Shown: one piece after another, positions 3,182 to 10,379 of the stretch | Layout of the letters: each line of letters begins with the position of its first letter | Numbering within the stretch: the first letter of the stretch is position 1 | Assembly: GCA_945828175.1 (NCBI GenBank) | Contig: CALZQD010000030.1 | Location: forward strand, 1-10,379 | DNA: 10,379 nt | Source of the DNA: an uncultured Bacteroidales bacterium | GTDB taxonomy: Bacteria > Bacteroidota > Bacteroidia > Bacteroidales > Muribaculaceae | Direction: 5' to 3' | Program-made: the position numbers and the translations under genes | Notes under the pieces: model-generated | What the model saw: the letters and a program-made list of their open reading frames with translations, nothing else | Told to the model about the DNA's origin: nothing | The model's database searches: none

Positions 3182-5128
3182 ATGAAGAAATACATTTTTA
3201 GTACTGTTGCCATCGTCGCCGCCGGACTCTCGGTTTATGCCGCTGCAGCCGCCGCAGACGACCCGGTGCTGATGACTGTCAACAACCACGACATCAGACT
3301 CAGCGAGTTTGAGTACCTTTATAATAAGAACAACTCACAGCAGCTGACCAAGCAGCCGATTGATGAATATATCGGCATGTTTGTCGACTACAAGCTGAAG
3401 GTCGCCGACGCCGAGGCCGCCGGCATCGACACGACAGCCGCATTTCTCACAGAATACAACCAGTTCCGCAACGACCTGGCAGCTCCGCTGCTCAAAGACA
3501 AGGCCGTCGAAGACTCGCTGCTTCATCAGGCCTACAGCCACTATGGCGAGGAAATCGACGTCAGCCACATCATGTTCTTCACCGACGACACATCGAAGGA
3601 AGCCGACGACGAATACCGCAACCGCGCCGAAGCCGTGCGCGACTCGATTCTTGCCGGCCAGATAACTTTCGAGGAGGCAGCAGCACGCCACTCAGTCGAC
3701 CGCGGCACACGAAACCGCGGCGGCCACATGGGCTGGATTGCCGCAGGCAGAGTGCCCTGGGGCTTTGAGGAAGTTGCCTACGAGACCCCCGTCGGCGCAC
3801 TGTCGCACGCAGCCAACTCGGGCCAGTTCTACCACATCATCAAGGTCAACGCCCGTCGTCCGGCACGAGGCGAAGTCAAGGCGCGCCACATAATCCGCCT
3901 CACGCAGGGAGCTTCGGAGGAGGAGACCGCCCGTCAGAAGGAAGTCATCGACTCATTATATAACGCCATCATGGCCGGCGACGATTTCGCCGTCGTAGCC
4001 AAGGAATACTCTCAGGACGGCACCGCAGCCAAAGGCGGTGACCTCGGCTGGTTTGGCGCCGGCATGATGATTGCCGAATTCGACAGCGTCGCCTTCAACA
4101 CCCCGAAAGGCGAAATCTCGAAGCCGTTCAAAACAGCATTCGGCTGGCACATCGTTCAGCCTACCGACCGCCGTCAGACACCGAGCTACGACGAGCTGCT
4201 TCCCAAGCTCAAAGAGAGCATGGCGAGCGACAACCGCGGCACCCTCGCCGCCCGCAGCTCGCTGCGCCGCTTCATCAAGCAATATAACTCTCACCTCATC
4301 GACGAGAACCTCGACAAAATCGAGGGCATGATCGCCGCCAATCCCGAAGGCCTTGACTCGACGATGCGCGCCACGCTCGCCGTCACCGACATCGACGTAG
4401 CCGAAGTCAACGGCAAGCCCGTCAAACTGAGCGAGGTAATGGCCGAGCTGCCCGTCTCTGTCGCCCTTAACGCCAAGAACGGCCGCCAGCTCATCAGCTC
4501 GACGGCAACAGACATGCTTGAGAAACGCACCCTCGAATGTGCCGCCGAAGACCTCGCGCTGACCGACACCGACTACCGCAACCTGCTCAACGAATACCGC
4601 GACGGCATACTGCTCTTCGAAATCTCGAACCGCAACGTCTGGGACAAGGCCAACAAAGACAAGGAAGGCCTCGAGAAGTTCTTCAAGAAGAACATCAAGA
4701 ATTATGCCTGGGACAAGCCCCGCTTCAAAGGCTACATCATCTTCACGACCAACGACTCGCTGCTCAACGCCGCCTATAACTACGCCGATTCGCTGGAGAC
4801 AATCGACCCTGCCGTCTTCGCCCGCGACATGCGCGCCAAATTCGGCCGCGACCTGAGAGTCGAACGCGTGATAGCCGCCGAGGGTGACAACCCCATCACC
4901 GACTACCTCGCCTTCGGCGCCGAGAAGCCCGTCAACGAGAAGACCCACTGGACTCACTACCGCGCCTTCCGCGGCGAGATGCTCGACGCTCCGCGTGAGG
5001 TCGCCGACGTCCGTGGCAAAGTGACGGCCGACTACCAGCAGTATCTCGAAAAAGAATGGCTCAAACGCCTCCACAAGAAATATAAAGTCAAAATCAACAA
5101 GAAAGTGCTCGACAGCATTTCAAAATGA
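3182..5128 (+). CDS. Periplasmic peptidyl-prolyl isomerase/chaperone with two parvulin domains (PpiC/SurA type)
   Basis: The product is a 648-residue exported protein. A signal peptide covers about residues 1-25 (MKKYIFSTVAIVAAGLSVYA core, then an alanine-rich cleavage zone). A SurA/PpiD-like helical arm follows (about 27-120). Two parvulin domains come next. The first is about 125-225, with VSHIMFF, GGHMGWIAAG (180-189) and FYHIIKV. The second is about 232-330, with VKARHIIRL, GGDLGWFGAG (285-294) and FGWHIVQ. The remaining 300 residues are lysine-rich and mostly helical, with a second chaperone-like region. Parvulins catalyse cis-trans isomerisation of X-Pro bonds, and SurA-type proteins escort unfolded outer-membrane proteins across the periplasm. 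The gene has its own promoter and overlaps the next gene by four bases (ATGA), implying translational coupling. Family is certain; the specific clients are inferred. Confidence 0.92.
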   Translation: MKKYIFSTVAIVAAGLSVYAAAAAADDPVLMTVNNHDIRLSEFEYLYNKNNSQQLTKQPIDEYIGMFVDYKLKVADAEAAGIDTTAAFLTEYNQFRNDLAAPLLKDKAVEDSLLHQAYSHYGEEIDVSHIMFFTDDTSKEADDEYRNRAEAVRDSILAGQITFEEAAARHSVDRGTRNRGGHMGWIAAGRVPWGFEEVAYETPVGALSHAANSGQFYHIIKVNARRPARGEVKARHIIRLTQGASEEETARQKEVIDSLYNAIMAGDDFAVVAKEYSQDGTAAKGGDLGWFGAGMMIAEFDSVAFNTPKGEISKPFKTAFGWHIVQPTDRRQTPSYDELLPKLKESMASDNRGTLAARSSLRRFIKQYNSHLIDENLDKIEGMIAANPEGLDSTMRATLAVTDIDVAEVNGKPVKLSEVMAELPVSVALNAKNGRQLISSTATDMLEKRTLECAAEDLALTDTDYRNLLNEYRDGILLFEISNRNVWDKANKDKEGLEKFFKKNIKNYAWDKPRFKGYIIFTTNDSLLNAAYNYADSLETIDPAVFARDMRAKFGRDLRVERVIAAEGDNPITDYLAFGAEKPVNEKTHWTHYRAFRGEMLDAPREVADVRGKVTADYQQYLEKEWLKRLHKKYKVKINKKVLDSISK

Positions 5129-9288: not shown

Positions 9289-10140
9289 ATGGGACTAACC
9301 GAAATCACTAACACCGAATTCGGAGGCGAACGCCCGCTGTTCGGCTCCAGAAACCTGATTCTAAAGAACGTAACCATACACGCCGGCGAGTCGGCACTCA
9401 AAAACTGCGCCAACATCACGGCCGAGAACTGCCGCTTCGAAGGCAAATATCCTTTCTGGCACGTCGACGGCTTCACCGTCAAATACTGCGTCTTCACTCC
9501 GGGCGCCCGCGCCGCTCTGTGGTACTCGAAAAACCTCGTCATGAGCGACACCCTCGTCGAGGCTCCGAAGATGTTCCGCGAGATGGACAACCTGCGCCTC
9601 GAGCGCGTGAAGATTCCCGATGCCGCCGAAACGCTCTGGCACTGCTCTGACATCACGCTGCGCGACGTCGAAGTCGCCAACGCCGACTACCTCTTCATGC
9701 ACTGCCGCAACATCGACATCGAACGTTATCGCCAGGACGGCAACTATTCGTTTCAATACTGCACCAACGTCGTGATACGCAATGCCATCATCAATTCTAA
9801 GGACGCGTTCTGGAACACCGAAGACGTCACCGTCTATGACAGCGAACTCAACGGCGAGTATCTCGGCTGGCACTCTCACCGCCTCCACCTCGTAAGATGT
9901 AAGATCTCAGGCACTCAGCCGCTCTGCTACGCCACTGACCTCGTGCTCGAGGACTGCACATTCGAGCCCGACTGCGACCTCGCTTTCGAGGATTCGTCGG
10001 TCAAGGCCACGATACTTTCGCCAGTGACATCGATAAAGAATCCGCGCACCGGCACAATCACACTGCCGTCGGTAGGCGAAATCATCAAGGACGAATTCTG
10101 CCTCGCTCCCGCCGACTGCGAGATAAACACAAAAGCCTGA
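9289..10140 (+). CDS. DUF3737 family protein, right-handed beta-helix-like solenoid
   Basis: The product has 283 residues and no signal peptide or membrane segment, so it is probably cytoplasmic. The opening [17 protein letters not shown] and the late motif [19 protein letters not shown] are what I recall as typical of DUF3737. Residues 12-245 divide into about twelve coils of 18-21 residues. Many share an aromatic or Leu at the fourth position, a Cys/Ser/Thr two or three later, and alternating hydrophobics (for example [51 protein letters not shown]). This is the hallmark of a pectate-lyase-like beta-helix. No function is established as far as I know, and I see no catalytic site. The start lies 18 bases after the OstA-like gene, and its stop is four bases before the MalY/PatB start, which suggests a shared transcript and a linked role with that enzyme. 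Confidence 0.85.
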
Positions 10141-10144
10141 GCTC

Positions 10145-10333
10145 ATGGCTGAATTTGACTTTGACGCGCCCGTCGAGCGCCGCGGCACCGGCTCATACAA
10201 ATGGGACACGACAGCCGAGGGCGTGCTACCGATGTGGGTCGCCGACATGGACTTCAGGACAGCTCCGGTCATCATCGAGGCCCTGCGCCGGCGCGTCGAC
10301 CACGGCGTATTCGGCTATACAGCAGTGCCCGAC
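10145..10333 (+). CDS. MalY/PatB-type PLP-dependent aminotransferase / cystathionine beta-lyase, 5' fragment
   Basis: Only the first 63 codons are genuine. They encode [20 protein letters not shown] followed by [10 protein letters not shown] (28-37), [11 protein letters not shown] (40-50) and [11 protein letters not shown] (53-63). These match the N-terminal arm of MalY/PatB enzymes, fold-type I PLP proteins of about 390 residues that act as carbon-sulfur lyases (cystathionine to homocysteine) or aminotransferases. The PLP-binding lysine and the rest of the protein are missing because the contig ends in adapter, not because of a mutation. The start ATG is four bases after the DUF3737 stop, so the two genes are probably co-transcribed. 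The reading frame runs on open through the adapter, adding 15 false residues ([15 protein letters not shown]) that must not be annotated. Confidence 0.88.
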
Positions 10334-10379
10334 CTGTCTCTTATACACATCTCCGAGCCCACGAGACGTAGAGGAATCT
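10334..10379 (+). other. Illumina Nextera adapter read-through (sequencing artefact)
   Basis: CTGTCTCTTATACACATCT (10334-10352) is the Nextera transposase mosaic end. It is followed by CCGAGCCCACGAGAC (10353-10367), completing the read-2 side adapter. GTAGAGGA (10368-10375) is then an 8-base i7 index, the one I remember as N712, and ATCT (10376-10379) is the start of the flow-cell P7 primer sequence. Order and content fit library read-through exactly. This is untrimmed adapter assembled onto a contig end, not genomic DNA. Confidence 0.98.

Follow-up and report, generated by a model that had tools for sequence, protein, structure and literature searches.

Why does this contig break off within a gene, and does the reading frame that stays open beyond the break belong to the organism? 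The stretch of DNA analysed here, referred to as the window, comprises 10,379 bases and corresponds to contig C30 of a genome (G000) that is represented by 1,902,563 bases in 316 contigs and is 82% complete. An initial annotation of the window had proposed that its last 46 bases consist of the mosaic end, the read-2 adapter, an 8-base index and the start of the P7 primer, in library order, and that the truncation of a MalY/PatB gene at this place is a technical matter. The first of these proposals agrees with the sequence base for base: positions 10334-10379 are an exact Illumina Nextera read-through of 46 bases.

The contig ends in a Nextera adapter

Four parts follow one another in the tail, all on the forward strand. 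It begins with the 19-base Tn5 mosaic end of Nextera libraries, CTGTCTCTTATACACATCT (10334..10352), which runs directly into the 15-base Nextera read-2 arm of the i7 side, CCGAGCCCACGAGAC (10353..10367). The i7 index GTAGAGGA occupies positions 10368..10375, and the contig closes with ATCT (10376..10379), the four bases that open the P7 complement. Another contig of the same assembly, C99, runs from the same index via ATCTCGTATGCCGTCTTCTGCTTG, a string that we take to be the P7 complement, into ten A. This succession of mosaic end, arm, index and P7 complement is what read 1 traverses once it has run past the end of a short insert.

When as many as three mismatches are allowed, the exact match to the mosaic end is the only one in the window, as compared with none in 200 shuffles. 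No adapter was seen in the first 240 bases of the window, which were searched as well. We conclude, with a probability of roughly 0.99, that the last 46 bases are leftover sequencing-kit DNA, an ordinary assembly artefact without bacterial origin, and we found no evidence against an adapter origin. Past base 10333, an adapter read-through would be expected to continue through ATCTCGTATGCC.

The mosaic end derives from the ends of Tn5, and this can be counted in favor of a different explanation, namely that a chromosomal insertion with a Tn5/IS50-type end interrupts the gene. The frame, which stays open, would also suit an insertion. Its probability is nevertheless vanishingly small. The supposed element runs on into library arms and a barcode, the 42-mer containing this barcode is present in unrelated phyla, and the contig ends inside the tail, whereas an insertion should be flanked by chromosomal sequence on both sides and by a 9-base duplication.

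Tails recur at contig ends throughout the assembly

The mosaic end 19-mer is present in 179 copies in the assembly, 96 in the forward and 83 in the reverse orientation, as compared with 0 copies of a reversed control. Every one of the 174 copies that were read (the window's own, 172 fetched by place and that of C99, which leaves out C206, C210 and three others) sits no more than 76 bases from a contig end. Such confinement to ends is the behavior of adapter sequence and speaks against a chromosomal Tn5/IS50 insertion. If each copy of the mosaic end represents one end, up to 179 of the 632 contig ends in this genome carry a tail.

Apart from that of C99, which measures 76 bases, the tails at the remaining 173 ends are 25 to 53 bases long with a mode of 46. 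Both library arms are found among these 173 ends (80 i7 and 93 i5), with C99 counted besides, and in the assembly as a whole the exact 34-mer of mosaic end and i7 arm occurs 80 times and the exact i5 arm 91 times. Tails that contain mismatches (n = 8, 47-53 bases) are longer than clean ones (n = 165, at most 48 bases; Mann-Whitney p ~1e-6). The longest tail of all, the last 76 bases of C99 (L444), carries an arm with two mismatches ahead of GTAGAGGA, ATCTCGTATGCCGTCTTCTGCTTG and the ten A. These A presumably represent the A run that appears once sequencing has gone beyond the library molecule.

The indices in these tails are constant. Specifically, of the 80 exact i7 arms in the assembly, 76 run on into GTAGAGGA, and none was read that differs. 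Among the other four, C80 breaks off after seven of the eight index bases and C113 directly after the arm, only 3 bases are left on C206, and C210 was not read. The 76 i7 ends were in part picked by a search that included the index, and 76/80 is the fair figure for this reason. The search for i5 tails was run without the index in the query, and here TATGCAGT is found in 87 of the 89 tails of sufficient length, the other two showing single-base variants of it. A single dual-indexed library lies behind every end with a readable index. An index that is constant within one assembly and different in others, as seen here, is the pattern expected of adapter read-through.

Tn5 favors 9-base targets bounded by G on one side and by C on the other. 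The last genomic base before the tail is C in 47 of the 81 ends examined first (p 1.8e-8) and in 90 of all 173, against a background of 0.29 that was derived from those first 81 ends. Nine bases from the end, G is only mildly enriched among the first 81 (29 ends, p 0.08), and it is found there in 67 of 173 overall. The excess of C as the last genomic base is in line with the target preference of Tn5.

The interrupted C-S lyase gene continues on a second contig

The true genomic sequence of the window stops at 10333, where it reads ...GTGCCCGAC. On the forward strand, a PatB/MalY-type C-S lyase gene begins at 10145, and its 5′ portion of 63 codons reaches to 10333; the product of this portion matches positions 1-63 of the NCBIfam profile TIGR04350 (E 4.3e-20) and, taken alone, has no family match in Pfam at E 0.001. 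The rest of the gene is carried by C261, a contig of 3270 bases that has an i5 adapter at its start. The first genomic bases of C261 (47-63) are identical to the 17 bases ATACAGCAGTGCCCGAC with which the genomic part of the window closes (10317..10333, forward strand), and the sequence of C261 after the junction is GAGTATTACAAAGC. The window and C261 parts match successive stretches of the PatB/MalY C-S lyase profile, the former, which holds only the first 63 codons of the gene, covering positions 1-63 and the latter positions 60-383 of 384. Scanned apart, the two score 71.9 and 322.5 bits, each below the full-length cut-off of 340, and the C261 part also matches PF00155.

Comparison with orthologous proteins yields a consistent result. 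When the ortholog from another genome (G004) is used as the query against the window's own assembly, its residues 2-61 are found on C30 and its residues 57-379 on C261; the query also matches a near-full-length paralog on C95 (36% identity) and has two weaker matches. Reading C30 and C261 across their overlap yields 391 residues without a stop and without adapter, and this joined protein is identical to the ortholog at 235 of 386 aligned positions, with an alignment that is unbroken through the junction. At the contig end as it stands, in contrast, the alignment ceases at residue 63. All 12 orthologs inspected, from a set of 14 loci, have YY one to two residues past the break, where the window has LSLIHIS. 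Judging from the joined sequence, the organism has an intact C-S lyase gene. The view that its truncation is technical is thus upheld by the 179 copies of the mosaic end in the assembly, the constant index and the continuation of the gene on C261.

These observations bear on each of the alternatives. A Tn5/IS50 insertion is already refuted by the overlap of C30 and C261, given that on C261 the gene runs through the junction with no element in it, and that this contig shares 17 rather than 9 bases with the window and is itself capped by the opposite library arm. It is also conceivable that the strain has a genuinely truncated or rearranged lyase gene and that the adapter merely marks the break, since the contig does end there. 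We consider this extremely unlikely, because the rest of the gene is present in the same assembly, where 17 identical bases connect the two parts and restore one frame that encodes a protein highly similar to its orthologs. An overlap of 16 bases or more would be expected by chance only ~3.5e-6 times among all pairs of the 173 ends, if base frequencies are equal.

Finally, C261 might belong to another strain or species within the bin, such that the join would mix two organisms. The genome is incomplete and bin-like, with many contigs and 1.7% contamination, and C261 is short, all of which would be compatible with a mixed origin. Against this, the 17 bases match exactly, and the sole other match that covers the N-terminal region from the start is the paralog on C95, at 36% identity. 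A mixed origin of the two contigs is therefore improbable. Regardless of the source of C261, the verdict that the tail is adapter remains unchanged.

Genes upstream of the break

Directly upstream of the PatB/MalY gene and on the same strand lies a DUF3737 gene (9289-10140). The same adjacency, again on one strand, is found in 14 of the 14 ortholog loci that were the best matches (L012-L025), of which 13 belong to the same genus and one to the same order. The conserved pairing of this family of unknown function with a C-S lyase suggests that the two may be functionally linked. The row of genes between 1569 and 9271 encodes an IMP dehydrogenase, two PPIC-type isomerase-domain proteins and, as its last member, an OstA-like protein. 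One protein without a Pfam match is encoded between the two isomerase-domain proteins.

A proposed origin of the tails

In the most probable course of events, a Nextera (Tn5) library was sequenced and its reads were assembled with adapter trimming left incomplete. Read 1 of a short insert whose last base is window base 10333 would have continued into the i7 adapter. If coverage at this place was too thin to provide a genomic overlap of sufficient length (at least the k of the assembler), the assembler could have taken the adapter branch instead, and the contig would have stopped 46 bases in, at which point its k-mers coincide with those of many other reads that contain adapter. C261 would represent the mirror event, a read-through into the i5 adapter whose genomic start lies at the place of window base 10317, and the two contigs overlap by 17 bases because the genomic sequence of C261 begins there. 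The contigs themselves show what the tails are, that they recur, that their indices do not vary, that 17 bases overlap and that the frame is continuous; from these, rather than from the reads, we infer the read-through, the thin coverage and the stop by k-mer sharing. The longer tails with mismatches (the eight described above and that of C99) fit this course of events, as does the 45-base overlap of one pair of contigs described below.

A 9-base Tn5 target duplication at the junction of C30 and C261, which would have pointed to a single insertion behind both sides, was considered and rejected, as the overlap there is 17. An overlap of 17 rather than 9 indicates that the two reads stem from separate insertions. 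Comparison of all pairs of the 173 ends reveals only four overlaps of at least 9 bases (45, 17, 16 and 9). The single pair with an exact overlap of 9 is no more than was obtained in two of four shifted controls, each of which also has one such pair. Given how few ends overlap, most breaks cannot be rejoined from the contig ends alone.

Two other pairs in this assembly can be described briefly. The starts of C186 and C10 (L368, L265) form an adapter-ended pair with a 16-base overlap, like that of C30 and C261. The end of C178 and the start of C41 (L411, L308), both with i5 tails, overlap by 45 genomic bases and yet were not joined, which suggests that the assembler used a k above 45. Among adapter-ended stretches of other genomes, terminal identity extends up to 52 bases, with pairs across assemblies included.

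Adapter tails yield false protein ends

The frame that begins with the ATG at 10145 is open through 10378 and in frame with the C-S lyase, such that a 15-residue adapter tail would be appended to the protein. The initial annotation was correct that the frame stays open into a false tail. Its treatment of this openness as notable does not hold. Forward frames 0 and 1 of the tail, two of three, are both open, and for this reason an open frame is no noteworthy coincidence; a frame is open across 240 genomic bases and the whole tail in 49 of the 77 ends examined (81 ends minus four with short tails). If the sequence is left untrimmed, annotation yields a false protein end at the tail of the window and probably at many other ends, and the lyase gene, although whole, would be annotated as broken.

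The related claim that peptides translated from the adapter pollute protein databases is borne out by example. Two phage records, LR597652.1 (L442) and LR597651.1 (L443), contain annotated hypothetical proteins, VUF54222.1 and VUF54217.1, respectively, that start with translated Nextera adapter. The N-terminus of VUF54217.1 consists of 10 residues of the translated arm, whereas that of VUF54222.1 consists of 11 adapter residues in the third frame. In VUF54217.1 the arm is the same as that translated in the tail of the window. However, the adapter in LR597651.1 lies at the end of the record on the opposite strand and begins the protein, whereas in the window it would form a false C-terminal tail. 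In the literature collection that was searched, no paper was found to print these adapter peptides.

The same adapter in other records, and what the indices can identify

Tails of this kind also turn up in public records of genomes, viruses, phages and plasmids. A set of 397 genomes from the window's family was sampled evenly out of a larger group. Four of them, the window's own included, contain the i7 34-mer; the other three have 4, 4 and 2 copies. Seven of these 10 copies were read (in G141, G171 and G105), and they are followed by other index sequences, one of which is seen only in part. In the genome_contigs collection, at least 110 stretches contain the 42-mer that includes GTAGAGGA, among them stretches from Colwellia, Chlamydiae, Planctomycetaceae and Clostridia, and 116 of 116 matches, among the matches listed, lie within 100 bases of an end of the stretch.

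The 34-mer is similarly present in at least 120 viral_contigs stretches, and 121 of 123 matches, among the matches listed, lie within 100 bases of an end. One viral_contigs locus (L201) has the i7 arm in mid-contig, around positions 4953-4986, where two pieces were possibly joined falsely through the adapter. At least part of the 46-base tail is matched by 41 of 50,697 phage records (10 of them over at least 80% of its length) and by 9 of 72,556 plasmid records (1 over at least 80%). An E. coli collection searched with the 46 bases returned no match.

It had also been suggested that the index may identify the source library, and this is borne out only in part. Taken alone, the i7 index does not name the library: it is present in many unrelated genomes, as is evident from the 42-mer above. 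The two indices combined do better. N712 and S506 are indices in use in Nextera kits. In PMC7589761, GTAGAGGA is given under the name N712, and the sequence named S506 is ACTGCATA, to which TATGCAGT is the reverse complement. Thus, the i7/i5 pair GTAGAGGA + ACTGCATA narrows the library, yet it remains a standard pair.

Comparison with published adapter contamination

The significance of the tail is one of data hygiene only. Both indices survive in these tails, and they could therefore be used as library labels on public contigs, for checks of binning or co-assembly and, in few cases, for rejoining contigs. Whether Nextera-type tails constitute a source of fragmentation that is missed by TruSeq-only surveys, and are usable as labels in this manner, is a proposition for which we see the chances as evenly balanced.

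Adapter-ended contigs have already been published, and the tail of the window is an artefact of this known kind (PMC11536531). As far as the excerpted text of that survey goes, Moeller et al. (2024) report adapters at the contig ends of public microbial genomes and blame them for broken contigs; the adapters are oriented forward at contig ends and as the reverse complement at contig starts, and trimming let contigs merge (PMC11536531). The excerpted portion of a second paper, PMC5253355, concerns other contamination and merely mentions the filtering of Nextera reads.

The window resembles the contigs of the survey by Moeller et al. in the placement of its adapter at a contig end. It differs in the kind of adapter and in what the adapter retains. 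According to the same excerpted text, the survey counted the TruSeq 12-mer AGATCGGAAGAG, such that Nextera tails fall outside its count (PMC11536531). The adapter in the assembly of the window is the Nextera mosaic end, and the sequences of both indices are retained there.
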